From Acidobacteriota bacterium (lineage in GTDB: Bacteria > Acidobacteriota > Terriglobia > Terriglobales > Acidobacteriaceae), in contig JABCZH010000006.1 in assembly GCA_013289795.1 (NCBI GenBank), positions 124,001-188,000 of the forward strand: a DNA stretch of 64,000 nt. Reading direction: 5' to 3'. A program made the translations under genes and the position numbers. Shown piece by piece: positions 28,863 through 36,273 of this stretch. The stretch's first letter is position 1, and each line of letters begins with the position of its first letter. The notes beneath the pieces are model-generated. The model searched no databases. It was not told the DNA's origin and saw only the letters and a program-made list of their open reading frames with translations.

Positions 28863-29555
28863 CTAATTCGTCGGGGCCGCGCGGGTATTGTTCAGGTGCA
28901 TACGAGTAAGCCATTTATGGGGTCCCTGATAAAGAAATTCCAGGCCAACGTTTTCGGCCGCGTATCCAATCATGCTGTAGTTGCCGAGGCGGAAGGCGTC
29001 GCGGGCATCGTAGCGGTCGGGGTACCAGGCGTAGACGCCTACCATGGTGCCGGCGTAGGGAGCGACCAGATCAGGGAAGGAAAAAACGCGATGGCCATCT
29101 TCGCCGCGGCGCGCACTGAGAGTGGAGATGAGGGCATGTTCCAGCCGGGGAAAGAAACCTGTGCACTCACAGCGGTAGTACAGGGTGTCCTCGCGGAAGA
29201 GTGCTGCCAGGCCATAACGCGTGGAGGTGCTAATCGCGAGAATTCCGAAGTTTGATCCGAAGCGCTTGCCGTAACCTTCTGCGCCTTGTTTCCATTCGGG
29301 CGGAGCGTTGTCTGCCTGATTGATGCCGGCAGCGATGGCGGCGCCGACGATGGGATAGGGGCCGAAGGCATCGAAGAGATAGTTGTGGAACTTGGTCGCG
29401 GCAGTGGGACGGGTGTAGGTCAGGCTTGGCTGCGGGGCGGATGGCAGGGCTGCGCTTGAGGAGTTGCTGGGGGCCGGTGCTTGGGCCTTGGCCAAGTGTG
29501 GCAGGACGGTGGTAACCGCGATAGCCAAGAACAGCGTCAGTCCGCGCATCTTCAT
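28863..29555 (-). CDS. Exported hypothetical protein, acidobacterial type
   Basis: A 230-residue protein with a signal peptide (LTLFLAIAVTTVLPHLAKAQA, cut after about residue 24) and a Pro/Ser linker before a compact domain. The domain has glycine-rich hydrophobic segments (YPIVGAAIAAGINQADNAPP, GNYSMIGYAAENVGLEFLYQ) that look like membrane-associated or outer-membrane-related helices, and a C-R-C pair in YYRCECTGFF. I do not recognise a named family; similar proteins are common in Terriglobia. It ends 160 bp from the small charged gene, which converges on it. Confidence 0.6.
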   Translation of the reverse strand: MKMRGLTLFLAIAVTTVLPHLAKAQAPAPSNSSSAALPSAPQPSLTYTRPTAATKFHNYLFDAFGPYPIVGAAIAAGINQADNAPPEWKQGAEGYGKRFGSNFGILAISTSTRYGLAALFREDTLYYRCECTGFFPRLEHALISTLSARRGEDGHRVFSFPDLVAPYAGTMVGVYAWYPDRYDARDAFRLGNYSMIGYAAENVGLEFLYQGPHKWLTRMHLNNTRAAPTN

Positions 29556-29799: not shown

Positions 29800-30078
29800 T
29801 CAATTGTGAACACTTTTGCCCACGAGAATGGCGATGGGAAGTCGCAGGGAGCGTATGGTTGGATGATGCCCGGGACCACCTTCGCTGACGGCGTGAACCG
29901 CTATACAGTCCCCTTCACTAAAGGGATCGGAAACTATCTCGAAATGTTCGCCATACATGGTTATGTGTCTAGGGGCGGTGAAGCCGAGGTCCTTGATGCG
30001 GGCGCAGTTCTCGGAGCGCGAGCGAGCGTTCGGAGCAGTTTCGACGGCACCGGTTCTTTGGGCGACGGTTTGCGGCAT
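29800..30078 (-). CDS. Conserved small hypothetical protein
   Basis: A 92-residue protein (MPQTVAQRTGAVETAPNARS) whose core ARIKDLGFTAPRHITMYGEH, FEIVSDPFSEGDCIAVHAVS and IRSLRLPIAIL looks like a folded, conserved domain rather than a shadow frame; I recall similar short proteins in Acidobacteriota. The Shine-Dalgarno is weak. It is the last gene of the minus-strand run beginning at 31194 and is followed by a terminator-like hairpin. The function is unknown. Confidence 0.5.
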   Translation of the reverse strand: MPQTVAQRTGAVETAPNARSRSENCARIKDLGFTAPRHITMYGEHFEIVSDPFSEGDCIAVHAVSEGGPGHHPTIRSLRLPIAILVGKSVHN

Positions 30079-30324: not shown

Positions 30325-30483
30325 TCAAACGGTTAGCGGGCATGGCCCGTGGTCACACTGACAGGCGATCTCTACTTCTTTGGAGCCTGCTTCCTGACAG
30401 GGTTGACCGCAATACTTGCCGCCAGGCTGGGCCATGCACCGGCATGGCAGATGTGCGCATTTGCTCTGTTCATTGGGGGTCAT
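30325..30483 (-). CDS. Metallothionein-like Cys-rich peptide
   Basis: A 52-residue ORF starting at 30483 with GGAG seven bases upstream. It reads MTPNEQSKCAHLPCRCMAQP, then GGKYCGQPCQEAGSKEVEIA and CQCDHGPCPLTV. Eight Cys and two His lie in the order C-x4-C-x-C, C-x3-C, C-x-C-x-H-x-x-C. That layout matches cyanobacterial and pseudomonad SmtA/BmtA metallothioneins, which bind Zn or Cd in thiolate clusters. The ATG sits within the last codons of the preceding 48-aa gene (14-bp overlap), implying translational coupling. Identification is by motif only. It is followed by csbD on the same strand. Confidence 0.75.
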   Translation of the reverse strand: MTPNEQSKCAHLPCRCMAQPGGKYCGQPCQEAGSKEVEIACQCDHGPCPLTV

Positions 30484-30616
30484 CGTTGCTCTCCTTTTTT
30501 TTCGATTCTTCGCTGTTCTTCACGACTTTTAGTTCGTCGGGTTGCTTTGGCGAAATGCCGTAAGTTGCCAATTCCCCTGTCGAAAGCTCTTCGTCTTTTG
30601 CGTTCAGTTCAGCCAT
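30470..30616 (-). CDS. Short hydrophilic protein, 48 aa
   Basis: MAELNAKDEELSTGELATYG then ISPKQPDELKVVKNSEESKK, a charged, probably disordered peptide. Its ATG at 30616 overlaps the TGA of the 192-aa gene as TGATG, and AAAGAGGTGG serves as ribosome binding site. Its end overlaps the metallothionein-like start. The overlaps on both sides support real translation even though no family is recognisable. It may be a linker or regulatory peptide. Confidence 0.5.
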   Translation of the reverse strand: MAELNAKDEELSTGELATYGISPKQPDELKVVKNSEESKKKESNDDPQ

Positions 30617-31194
30617 CACGCCACCTCTTTCGCTGCCACCATGGTTGGGACCTGCACCAGTTCGTCAAAGAGAGAGCGGTAGTGAATCATGGCTGTCCTT
30701 AGATCTTCGGTGGTGGCGGCGTCCTTCCCGACCCGCAGCGCAATTTCATGGGCAGAGCGATAGTTTTCCACCACTTGAGGATGGTCGACAGAAATGTCGG
30801 CGGCACGCTGATCGAAATCGGATACCGGATAGCCACGAGTCTTCATCACCGAGGACACCAGGTCATCGGCCTCGGTAACAGTGCCTTTTGGGGAATCAAC
30901 AAAACGAGATTGCAGAGACTCCCATCGTTTCACAAAACGTTCGCGGTCCGCGGGATCAAGATCACGAATATTGAGCTTCTCAACCCGCTTCTCGCGATCC
31001 GCTAACTTCGCTTCGGCTTTACGTTCTGATCCGTGTGTCAGCACCGCTCGCTCGTACTCGGGGCCAAATTTCTGCCGCAGGTCTGCGGTCGTATGTCTTC
31101 GATTCCGCACGTACAGCCAGGTGAGCACTACGATAATCAGAATTACGACGGCGACCAGCGCAATCAGCTTAGGGTCGAGCGCACTTAGATTCAT
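30616..31194 (-). CDS. Membrane-anchored conserved hypothetical protein
   Basis: A 192-residue protein with one N-terminal transmembrane helix (LIALVAVVILIIVVLTWLYV, about residues 10-29), then a basic region and a helical cytoplasmic domain: FGPEYERAVLTHGSERKAEA, IRDLDPADRERFVKRWESLQ, ADISVDHPQVVENYRSAHEI. This matches an unnamed acidobacterial family also seen near stress genes. It is the first gene of a run with the 48-aa gene, the metallothionein-like gene and csbD, and is divergent from the BON lipoprotein gene. A stress or envelope role is suggested by context only. Confidence 0.65.
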   Translation of the reverse strand: MNLSALDPKLIALVAVVILIIVVLTWLYVRNRRHTTADLRQKFGPEYERAVLTHGSERKAEAKLADREKRVEKLNIRDLDPADRERFVKRWESLQSRFVDSPKGTVTEADDLVSSVMKTRGYPVSDFDQRAADISVDHPQVVENYRSAHEIALRVGKDAATTEDLRTAMIHYRSLFDELVQVPTMVAAKEVA

Positions 31195-31517
31195 GGAACC
31201 CTCCTATCGGGATATTCACAGCACCGAACTCGGTTCACAGACTCTCTTGGTCAGAACCTGGTGAGCCGCCAGTATCAGACTTTAGGAATGCGAATACTGA
31301 TCAGAATTGATCGTGTTTGAAAGGAACGCAGCGTGGGAGGCGAATGTGAAAGTGCATGAGACGGTCATCGAGGTTGTCCACAGTGGCGTGCTGGCTCGCG
31401 TAGTGAGCGGTTCTGCACAGAACTATGCAAGCGTATGAGCGAATCTAAAGGTCGTTTCCGCAGGTGGAGGTTTCTGATTCTCCCGGATTCAATCCAGATC
31501 CAATCAAAGGAAAAAAC
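31195..31517. other. Divergent intergenic region, no clear gene
   Basis: This 323-bp spacer separates the stress-type operon (minus) from the BON gene (plus). One tiny ORF with GGGAGG before a GTG (31346-31438, 30 codons, MKVHETVIEVVHSGVLARVV) is visible but unsupported. No dispersed repeats are apparent, unlike most gaps of this size here, which suggests the sequence carries regulatory sites. Confidence 0.4.
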
Positions 31518-32066
31518 ATGAAAACAGTCAAGTTGTTTTTCGCGTTGCTCGCGTTGCTGGCCATTGGGGCCACGTTGGGATGCTCAGGAGCTTCCGCGAA
31601 GTCGCCCGAGGTTTCTGACAGCATCCGTACTTCGCTCGATCAAGCCGGCCTCAAAAACGTTTCTGTCCGTCAGGATCGTGACAAGGGGGTAGTGACGCTT
31701 GGCGGCACCGTTGCCACTGAGAACGACAAGGCACAAGCCGAATCGCTGGCGAAACCCCTGGCGGGCACGCAAGTTGTGGCGAATGAAATTGCCGTGGTTC
31801 CGGTGGGTGTGGAAACAGACGCCAAAGCGGTGAATTCCGATTTGGACAAGGGGATCGAGGAAAATCTGGATGCGGCGCTGATCCAGAACAAAATGCACGA
31901 AAACGTCAGGTACGACGTGAAGAGCGGCGTAGTCACACTGAGTGGGGAAGTGAACTCGCAGTCGAAGCGAGACAATGCCGCAACCGTGGCCACGAACGTA
32001 CCTAACGTGAAGCAGGTAGTCAATGATGTGCAGGTTAAGGATCAGAAGGCCAGTTCAGCACAGTAA
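31518..32066 (+). CDS. Lipoprotein with two BON domains
   Basis: A 182-residue protein starting at 31518 (MKTVKLFFALLALLAIGATL) with AAAGGA before it. The lipobox ATLGCSG places the lipid-modified Cys at about residue 22. Two BON domains follow: IRTSLDQAGLKNVSVRQDRD with VVTLGGTV, and LDAALIQNKMHENVRYDVKS with VVTLSGEVNSQSKR. BON domains bind phospholipid or act in osmotic-stress envelope proteins such as OsmY. Likely an outer-membrane or periplasmic stress protein. It is divergent from the stress-type operon, which fits shared regulation. Confidence 0.85.
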   Translation: MKTVKLFFALLALLAIGATLGCSGASAKSPEVSDSIRTSLDQAGLKNVSVRQDRDKGVVTLGGTVATENDKAQAESLAKPLAGTQVVANEIAVVPVGVETDAKAVNSDLDKGIEENLDAALIQNKMHENVRYDVKSGVVTLSGEVNSQSKRDNAATVATNVPNVKQVVNDVQVKDQKASSAQ

Positions 32067-33928: not shown

Positions 33929-34339
33929 GTGGTTTATCTAACTCGCAAGGCTGAATTCGCGGCGTCGCACTATTATCACAATCCGGCGTTGAGTGCGGAG
34001 GAGAACCGGCGGCTGTTCGGGAAGTGCAATAACCCCAATGGGCATGGCCACAACTACACTCTGGAGGTTACGGTGAAGGGTGCGGTCGATCCGCGGTCGG
34101 GATTTGTGATTGACCTTAAGCAGTTGAAAGACACCATGAATCGTGAAGTGCTGGAGGCGATGGATCACCGCTTCCTTAATAAGGAGGTGCCGGAGTTTTC
34201 TTCGCGGATTCCGACCACGGAGAATTTGGCGATTGCGATCTGGCAGCGGCTGGCTCCGAAGTTGAAGGAGGCGCAGTTGCATCGGGTGCGAGTGTATGAA
34301 ACGGCCGACCTGTTTGTGGATTTCTATGGGGAAGCATGA
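33929..34339 (+). CDS. 6-pyruvoyl-tetrahydropterin synthase-like protein, complete catalytic set
   Basis: A 136-residue PTPS/QueD-family protein with a GTG start at 33929 after AAGGGG. Zinc ligands are H14, H39 and H41 (AASHYYHN; NGHGHNY). The triad is C33 in FGKCNNPNGHGHNY, D79 and H80 in LEAMDHRFLN, and the pterin-anchoring Glu is in VYETADLF. The GKCNNPNGHGHNY wording is that of true PTPS rather than the shorter QueD motif. It converts 7,8-dihydroneopterin triphosphate to 6-pyruvoyl-tetrahydropterin or a related product. It overlaps the next paralogue by four bases. Confidence 0.88.
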   Translation: MVYLTRKAEFAASHYYHNPALSAEENRRLFGKCNNPNGHGHNYTLEVTVKGAVDPRSGFVIDLKQLKDTMNREVLEAMDHRFLNKEVPEFSSRIPTTENLAIAIWQRLAPKLKEAQLHRVRVYETADLFVDFYGEA

Positions 34340-34752
34340 AGGCGCATTTGACGCGGCGATACAAGTTCTCGGCTTCGCACCGGTTGCATAGCGATGCCAT
34401 GTCGGACGCGGAAAATGCCGCTACCTATGGCAAGTGCAACAACCCTTTCGGACACGGACACAACTACACTCTTGAAGTCACCGTGAGCGGGCAGGTGGAT
34501 GAGAATGGGATGGTGTGCAATCTGGTGGATCTGGATGGGTTTGTGGAGCGGGAGATCCTGGAGCGGTTTGATGTGCAGAACCTGAATACCTTGCCGGAAT
34601 TCGCGGAAACGGTGCCGACCACGGAGAATCTGTCGATTGCGGTTTACGATATTTTGCAGCGTGGGTTCAGGCTGGCTCATCTGGAAAGAGTGAGATTTGA
34701 AGAGACTTTAATGAATTCGTTTGAGTATGCGGGAGAAAAGCAAAAGCTTTAA
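34336..34752 (+). CDS. Second PTPS paralogue lacking the catalytic His
   Basis: A 138-residue protein starting at the ATG inside the ATGA overlap. It aligns with the preceding gene along its whole length: [20 protein letters not shown] keeps C34 and the zinc ligands H40 and H42, with H15 upstream, and [14 protein letters not shown] keeps the Glu. At the DH position it has D79-V80 ([10 protein letters not shown]), so the His of the triad is missing. It may be a heteromeric partner, an inactive regulator, or an enzyme with a changed reaction such as side-chain cleavage. Tandem duplication with divergence is the likely origin. Confidence 0.85.
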
Positions 34753-34784
34753 CCACAGAGGGCACAGGGGTTCACAGAGGAGAA
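34750..34784 (+). repeat. CACAGAGG-type repeat supplying the folE ribosome binding site
   Basis: TTTAACCACAGAGGGCACAGGGG continues as TTCACAGAGGAG right before the GTG of folE (34788). The last repeat unit contains GAGGAG, the only Shine-Dalgarno-like sequence for that gene. Confidence 0.8.
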
Positions 34785-34787
34785 TTA

Positions 34788-35387
34788 GTGAAGAGTTCAG
34801 TTGAGAGTCCGACGATCACCAGCGCCAGTTTTGAGGAGTTGGTGCGGGAGATGATTGTGCGGCTGGGGGAAGATCCCGCGCGCGAAGGGTTGACGCGCAC
34901 GCCGGAGCGGGTGCATCGGGCGTACGAGCATTTGATGAAGGGGTATAAAGAAGATCCGGAGGCGATGCTCAAGAAAGCTTTGTTTACGGTCACGTATGAC
35001 CAGATGGTGATCGTGAAGGACGTGGAGATGTTCAGCCTGTGCGAGCATCACATGCTGCCGTTTTTCGGGAAAGTGCATGTGGCCTACATTCCGAATGGGA
35101 AAGTGATTGGGCTGAGTAAGATTCCGCGGCTGGTGGATATTTTCTCGCGGCGGCTGCAGATTCAGGAGCGGTTGACGACGCAGATTGCGGAGACGATCCA
35201 GAAGGCGATTGATCCGCAGGGAGTGGGAGTAGTGATCGAGGCGCGGCATTTGTGCATGATGATGCGCGGAGTGGAGAAGCAACATTCGGCGGCGGTGACG
35301 TCGTCGATGCTGGGGTGCTTCCGCGACGAGCAGGAAACGCGGACGGAGTTCTTGTCGTTGATTCATAACAAGACGAATGGGGTGTAG
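34788..35387 (+). CDS. folE: GTP cyclohydrolase I
   Basis: A 199-residue enzyme converting GTP to 7,8-dihydroneopterin triphosphate. Zinc and catalytic residues lie in [20 protein letters not shown] (Cys and two His) and [12 protein letters not shown] (second Cys). [20 protein letters not shown] is the N-terminal signature, and [20 protein letters not shown] the core. Start is GTG at 34788 ([15 protein letters not shown]). It is in series with the two PTPS genes, so its product can feed them directly. Confidence 0.95.
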
Positions 35388-35547
35388 CGCCTCAGGGGCC
35401 AAAGCTTGGGCTTTGAGGCATGAATGGCCGGCCGTGCGCGAAAGCGTTCAGCGCGTTGAAACCTTCCACGGGTAAAGGCCTTCGGGGGTGCTCTAGATCT
35501 CTCAAGAAGCCTAGACGGCGCGGCTTGAAGCCGCGGCCTTTCAAAGC
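35388..35547 (+). other. Intergenic region with GGCCAAAGC and CGGCTTGAAGCCG hairpins
   Basis: Short inverted repeats such as GCCAAAGCTTGGGC and GCGCGGCTTGAAGCCGCGGCC (35518-35538) lie between folE and the SDR gene. The last belongs to the GGCACGGCTGAAGCCGTGCC palindrome family. No gene is visible. Confidence 0.5.
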
Positions 35548-36273
35548 TTGGAAAATAAACATCATTTGCGAGGGAAGGTTGCGCTGATTACGGGCGGCGG
35601 CCAAGGGATCGGGCTGGCCATTGCACATGCGCTGGCGGCAGAGGGATGCGATGTGGTCATCACTGGCCGGACGCTTTCCACTTTGAAGAAATCCGCGACG
35701 CAACTGGCTAAATACAAGGTTCAGGTGATGCCGGTCGTGTGCGATGTGCGGGACGAGGATGCAGTTGCGGCCATGGTGGCGGCAGCCAGGAAGAAGTTTC
35801 AGCGGCTGGACGTCGTGATCAATAATGCCGGTGTGGCGCACGAGAGCCTTCCGGTCGCAAAACTGCCGTTAGAGGCCTGGCGGCAGGTGATCGATACCAA
35901 TCTGACCGGGACGTTCCTAGTGACCAGGGCGGCTCTGCCGCTGATGAAGCGCGGTGGGACGATCGTGAACAATCTTTCGATTGCGGCGAAGACGGCGTTT
36001 CCTAATATGGCCGGGTACGTGGCCGCGAAGCACGGGGCGCTGGGATTGACCAAGACTTTGCGTGAGGAACTGCGGCCGAAGGGAATCAGGGTGATTGCGC
36101 TGATGTTGGGAGCCGTCGATACCGACATCTGGGATTCGTTTTGGCCGGGCGCCCCGCGGAGACGAATGATGTCGCCCCGGACCGTAGCGAGTGCAGTGGT
36201 CAACGCGCTGCGATTGCCGGAAGACGGTTCAGTGGATGAATTGGTAATTACGGGTGCGGCGGGGCCGGTTTAG
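35548..36273 (+). CDS. Short-chain dehydrogenase/reductase, possibly sepiapterin-reductase-like
   Basis: A 241-residue SDR with a TTG start (MENKHHLRGKVALITGGGQG). The TGGGQGIG cofactor motif is at residues 15-22, then NNAG, NLSIAAK (Ser) and YVAAK (Tyr/Lys). The residue after beta-2 is Arg (VVITGRTLS), favouring NADPH. It is placed after folE and two PTPS genes, where a sepiapterin reductase would complete tetrahydrobiopterin synthesis. Sequence alone does not separate that from general 3-ketoacyl reductases. Confidence 0.82.
   Translation: MENKHHLRGKVALITGGGQGIGLAIAHALAAEGCDVVITGRTLSTLKKSATQLAKYKVQVMPVVCDVRDEDAVAAMVAAARKKFQRLDVVINNAGVAHESLPVAKLPLEAWRQVIDTNLTGTFLVTRAALPLMKRGGTIVNNLSIAAKTAFPNMAGYVAAKHGALGLTKTLREELRPKGIRVIALMLGAVDTDIWDSFWPGAPRRRMMSPRTVASAVVNALRLPEDGSVDELVITGAAGPV

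Follow-up and report, generated by a model that had tools for sequence, protein, structure and literature searches.

Metallothioneins are known in bacteria mainly from cyanobacteria, pseudomonads, and mycobacteria, and genes of the SmtA type commonly, if not universally, adjoin the gene of an ArsR/SmtB repressor. In Pseudomonas fluorescens, a metallothionein encoded in an operon without a metal regulator is induced in stationary phase and aids long-term survival, and it is dispensable for metal resistance (PMC7387436). Among small stress proteins, the CsbD-like YjbJ of Salmonella is listed with those controlled by sigma-S (PMC5437024). At the acidobacterial locus described here, a metallothionein-like gene directly adjoins a csbD gene.

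The locus lies in a stretch of 64,000 nucleotides from contig JABCZH010000006.1 (Acidobacteriaceae), called the window below; its features are listed in Table 1. The ORF check bore out the preliminary description of four nested minus-strand ORFs: the ATG of the 48-aa ORF (P48) at 30616 lies on the stop codon of the 192-aa gene in a TGATG overlap, the 52-aa ORF overlaps P48 by 14 bp (30470–30483), and csbD starts (30299) 25 bp past the end of the 52-aa ORF (30325). The neighbours belong to known stress families, with CsbD, BON/OsmY-like, and ElaB-like members present in the unit, its flank or its relatives. In the Pfam search, CsbD scored 46.1 bits against PF05532 (cut-off 40) and the BON lipoprotein matched PF04972 with an E-value of 1.2e-22 over two BON stretches; the 52-, 48-, 192-, and 230-aa proteins matched no family in Pfam and NCBIfam. 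The AlphaFold2 model of the 230-aa protein reached a pLDDT of 36. Elsewhere in the window (33929–36273, plus strand), a row of ORFs looks like a tetrahydropterin-type pathway: by sequence reading, two in tandem resemble 6-pyruvoyltetrahydropterin synthase/QueD, one GTP cyclohydrolase I, and one a short-chain dehydrogenase.

Table 1. Features of the metallothionein-like locus, in window coordinates
Feature	Position	Strand	Remark
192-aa membrane-anchored protein, N-terminal TM helix	30616..31194	-	first gene of the unit; no Pfam family
P48, 48-aa accessory ORF	30470..30616	-	start coupled to the 192-aa stop via TGATG
52-aa metallothionein-like protein, 8 Cys + His11 + His45	30325..30483	-	
AGGAG, ribosome-binding site of the 52-aa ORF	30491-30495	-	
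CsbD-like stress protein, 60 aa	30117..30299	-	PF05532
92-aa ORF, C-terminus like CARIKDLGF protein	29800..30078	-	
230-aa secreted protein, signal peptide, conserved CxC	28863..29555	-	
BON-domain (OsmY-like) lipoprotein, divergent	31518..32066	+	intergenic region common with the unit
Conserved candidate promoter/operator	31271..31312	-	palindrome + 19 nt + TGATACT

The 52-aa ORF proves to be a real, previously unannotated protein-coding gene, under coding selection and conserved in Acidobacteriota. Its Cys/His pattern is exactly the one first noticed, C9xxxxC14xC16...C25xxxC29...C41xC43xH45xxC48. A scan of species genomes found relatives at 20 loci, all of them acidobacterial, and a second copy, 58% identical to the protein, is found in the same genome (C3:95095). 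A further match at C5:100734 was rejected as not a real family member, the C-terminal cluster being absent. The profile of the close family has matches in 65 of 150 genomes of the same taxonomic family, and the wider profile in 31 of 199 genomes of the phylum. No member of the close group departs from the eight Cys, His11, and His45; in the wider family the eight Cys and His45 are still invariant and His11 nearly so. Variation falls mostly on third codon positions (48 of 52 variable, as against 27 first and 22 second positions), and the pooled pN/pS is 0.20. In four of the five other frames of the region this ratio exceeds 1.5, and the fifth (0.29) is the antisense register with which the ORF has the wobble position in common. 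Homologues in relatives and coding selection, the two points on which the preliminary description had staked the gene, were both found.

For the relation to SmtA, the chain 1JJD and six plasmid copies, three of them annotated as metallothionein, were aligned and compared with the 52-aa family by profile-profile alignment (hhalign), which gave a probability of 95.9 and a score of 50.25. Because Cys-rich proteins match one another by composition, shuffled controls were made: with the Cys and gap columns fixed and the rest shuffled 100 times, the score averaged 14.3 and never exceeded 24.3, and with all columns of the SmtA set shuffled the maximum was 20.3. The real score lies far above the shuffles and therefore supports homology to SmtA-type metallothioneins beyond Cys content. 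PF02069 has a curated cut-off of 33 bits, which no tested member reached: relatives scored 12.5–14.5 bits, the window protein had no match at E<=1, and 0 of 60 family genomes passed. Nevertheless, PF02069 was the only family touched by many members of the A2 set (13 of 22, best E-value 1.7e-4), and among PDB chains the wider profile ranked SmtA 1JJD first, with an E-value of 0.4 that is not significant. Neither phmmer of the 52-aa protein against the PDB nor tblastn of plasmids with the family consensus (E<=0.01) returned a match; at E<=10 the latter found mostly staphylococcal loci, about half annotated as metallothionein, which served only as a bridge. A scan of viral contigs by the wide alignment was not accepted, and the AlphaFold2 model of the protein (pLDDT 48.6) is unusable for the fold.

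The proteins resemble SmtA (Synechococcus SmtA, 1JJD, and the cyanobacterial, Sphingomonas, and Staphylococcus plasmid copies of SmtA/PF02069) in a length of about 50 aa, a K-C-A-x-x-x-C-x-C start in register, a YCxxxC middle, and a C-x-H-x-x-C near the end. The full SmtA ligand set comprises nine Cys and two His, and nine of these 11 positions carry Cys or His in register in the 52-aa family, His11 standing in place of Cys11. The full set is not present, since His40 and the terminal Cys54 of SmtA are absent; Cys41 is extra, and the loop that separates the first Cys cluster from the second is about seven residues shorter. Since the family is homologous to SmtA, and yet misses the PF02069 cut-off, lacks two ligands, and at this locus has no adjoining SmtB-type regulator gene, it represents a new and divergent branch among the metallothionein-like proteins of bacteria. 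The SmtA/BmtA likeness proposed at the outset thus stands as homology by profile and falls as membership of PF02069. The 52-aa protein probably binds Zn(II)/Cd(II) through its eight Cys and up to two His. It might instead be a small structural or regulatory zinc protein of SmtA-like ancestry, for example a treble-clef or zinc-knuckle adaptor of proteins or nucleic acids, with no storage function. SmtA itself has a zinc-finger-like half, the family profile weakly touches a PHD-finger chain and the 'Probable treble clef' family DUF2116, and residues other than Cys (A10, Y24, A32, and I39) are strictly conserved. These matches to zinc-finger families are, however, non-significant, and eight Cys and two His in 52 residues, arranged in three Cys clusters with little else, are more simply explained by storage, so that the adaptor reading is considered quite improbable.

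Both the core of the operon and its promoter element are conserved. The unit of relatives begins with the 192-aa gene, in some cases followed by a short coupled ORF, and continues with csbD, the ElaB-like gene, in some cases a CARIKDLGF gene, the metallothionein-like gene, and the 230-aa gene, with the BON lipoprotein gene opposite the unit and a divergent relative of it in five loci (L011, L014, L015, L017, and L020). Among the 24 close loci, the 230-aa gene is present in 18, the 192-aa gene in 15, where it lies upstream of the metallothionein-like gene and encodes proteins 70–86% identical, and csbD in 10; neither partner was found in six within the flanks seen. The 230-aa relatives (60–72% identical) start 32–106 bp downstream of the metallothionein-like gene in the 13 measured loci. 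More widely, the 192-aa protein was found in 29 and paralogues of the 230-aa protein in 128 of the 150 family genomes. The overlapping mini-operon noticed first is real in this genome as an order of genes, but this order is not conserved, and the unit of relatives is larger and differently arranged. The window is rearranged: the metallothionein-like gene precedes csbD, the ElaB-like gene that lies between the two in relatives appears reduced to a start, and the 14-bp overlap with P48 and the direct adjacency to csbD occur only here. P48 is recognisable in just three other loci (L009, L017, and L023), over its N-terminal 25 aa or so, and is truncated or absent elsewhere; the only feature of it that recurs is a start coupled to the 192-aa stop. 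The 92-aa ORF probably arose by a deletion that fused two genes of the operon, its C-terminal 69 aa being 67% identical to the CARIKDLGF protein of L013 and its first residues, MPQTV, resembling the ElaB-like start (a weak match, E 0.065). An intact ElaB-like gene of this genome is on C1, and its product is 81% identical to that of L009. In L095, the ElaB-like gene is followed by an ORF (2006–2698) with a likeness to a portion of a chaperonin (Cpn60_TCP1; its 28.8 bits are below the cut-off). Some relatives show decay, namely L023 (metallothionein-like gene truncated at the N-terminus), L017 (early stop codon in the 230-aa gene), and L013 (192-aa gene split over two frames), although assembly errors are possible. 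Given this fluid content, in which csbD, P48, and ElaB-like genes come and go, and the truncation in L023, the 52-aa ORF could also be read as lacking any metal function, either as a redox or thiol buffer or as a remnant that hitch-hikes in a variable stress island. The purifying selection on it and the invariance of its Cys/His ligands across genera make this highly improbable.

Upstream of the 192-aa gene, the window contains the palindrome GATCAATTCTGATCAG (31297–31312), followed after 19 nt by TGATACT with a -10-like GATACT at 31271–31276 on the minus strand; a sigma-70 scan of the region found no standard promoter. In 14 of 15 loci the block can be aligned ahead of the 192-aa gene, and the most symmetrical form of the palindrome is CTGGTCAATTTTGACCAG. 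The exact element with the full -10 pattern occurs once in this genome; a gapped pattern (14–24 nt allowed) was found in 10 of the 150 family genomes, with no match in the reversed control. The distance from the CAG to GATACT amounts to 20 or 21 nt at 24 of the 26 non-redundant sites; since most sites were drawn from loci retrieved for this operon, they are not all independent. The centre of the palindrome thus lies 29–30 nt before GATACT. If GATACT is the -10, this puts it near -41.5, where activators of the CRP/FNR family bind at class II promoters. The geometry accordingly fits a CRP/FNR class II promoter with a predicted -10. The same element precedes the ElaB-like gene of this genome (C1:460160), a GT4-like glycosyltransferase gene in five genomes from several genera (L110–L113 and L117), a csbD-like start (L116), and the gene of a PAS-domain protein (L118); before the glycosyltransferase gene of this genome (L097, C20:15899) the palindrome is present and GATACT is not exact. 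Four operator matches with two mismatches (C2, two in C6, and C8) were dismissed as chance, there being no GATACT at the right spacing.

With respect to the regulator, CRP/FNR genes adjoin the unit in five relatives (L006, L012, L018, L021, and L008, the last with two), and this genome encodes four close homologues (67–82% identical) of the L021 protein, at C21:40919, C1:488874, C1:446299, and C1:444822. Several CRP/FNR-family genes, including one fragment with a stop, cluster at C1:442852–489518, no more than about 50 kb from the ElaB-like gene that has the conserved promoter element in front of it. The preliminary description had emphasized a classical metal-responsive metallothionein operon, induced by Zn, Cd, or Cu, whose peptide confers metal resistance. 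The homology to SmtA agrees with this, as does a CsoR-type metal repressor gene (PF02583) about 2 kb away on the contig of one relative (L007). Against it, no ArsR/SmtB, metal pump, or metal regulator gene lies beside the operon in the window, ArsR/SmtB is found at just one of 75 acidobacterial metallothionein-like loci (it is present at four plasmid metallothionein loci, L104, L106, L108, and L109), and the conserved promoter is common to csbD, ElaB-like, and glycosyltransferase genes. A metal-responsive operon is therefore held to be unlikely. Of the metal/stress-response unit suggested earlier, the stress-family partners are retained and a metal-responsive regulator beside the operon is not. 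Regulation looks general-stress in kind, with a CRP/FNR-type activator, and not a metal sensor, as the probable switch of the operon.

Taken together, it appears reasonably likely that the 52-aa gene encodes a divergent metallothionein-like protein, probably Zn(II)/Cd(II)-binding, within a general-stress or stationary-phase envelope operon. Its members would be the 192-aa inner-membrane protein, CsbD, the ElaB-like protein, the metallothionein-like protein, and the secreted 230-aa protein, presumably co-transcribed, with the BON lipoprotein divergent. Under nutrient or envelope stress, a CRP/FNR-family protein bound at about -41.5 would turn the operon on; the membrane and secreted partners would strengthen the envelope, the CsbD and ElaB-like proteins would play the parts they have in other stress responses, and the metallothionein-like protein would serve as a thiolate-bound Zn reserve, or as a scavenger of released metal and oxidants, in long non-growing periods. 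The precedent of P. fluorescens (PMC7387436) and the sigma-S control of YjbJ (PMC5437024) make such a general-stress role appear more likely than metal detoxification. As a tentative extension, a CRP/FNR-type regulon of Acidobacteriaceae, so far unrecognised and with the operator CTGGTCA-N4-TGACCAG at -41.5, might couple the new branch to envelope-stress and dormancy genes, metal buffering then being part of programmed starvation survival and not a metal response.

Other members of the family have other neighbours, among them Ysc84 and WXXGXW proteins. A second clade (L002, which is C3:95095 of this genome, and L028–L034) lies upstream of a DUF3300 gene, a neighbour found at seven loci including the paralogue of this genome, and several of its loci have a response-regulator gene on the other side. 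A third clade (L049, L051, L058–L062, L065, L068, and L078), from one acidobacterial lineage, lies between recN-like and squalene-hopene-cyclase-like genes, both named by sequence reading. Acidobacteriota are among the most abundant phyla of soil, and the conserved, unannotated metallothionein branch that they harbour is linked to stress genes and a common promoter and not to a metal sensor. This favours the view that many metallothioneins of bacteria function in long-term survival, and the promoter element is a ready handle for finding the rest of the regulon. A search of open-licence papers for CsbD with metallothionein found nothing relevant; a stress operon with a metallothionein-like gene is not described in the papers covered, and an earlier description elsewhere is possible.

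Compared with known systems, the promoter shares with CRP/FNR class II promoters an inverted repeat whose centre lies about 41.5 bp before the inferred start, but its half-site, TGGTCA-N4-TGACCA, is unlike those of CRP (TGTGA-N6-TCACA) and FNR (TTGAT-N4-ATCAA). The small stress proteins of the RpoS and sigma-B systems (CsbD/YjbJ, OsmY/BON, and ElaB/YqjD) are matched by Pfam for CsbD and BON, and for ElaB by size, a glycine-rich C-terminal TM segment, and position. In contrast to those systems, such genes here share an operon with a metallothionein-like gene, under a promoter of CRP/FNR class II geometry instead of an RpoS-type one. The Pseudomonas metallothioneins (PflQ2 MT and PmtA/BmtA) are alike in having no metal regulator in the operon and neighbours of unknown function (PMC7387436, PMC8636135). 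Unlike the 52-aa family, they keep the SmtA-type Cys distribution and a disordered tail (PMC7387436), and their operon partners, as described, differ from those of the window; their role in stationary-phase survival is nonetheless the closest functional precedent for this locus (PMC7387436, PMC8636135).
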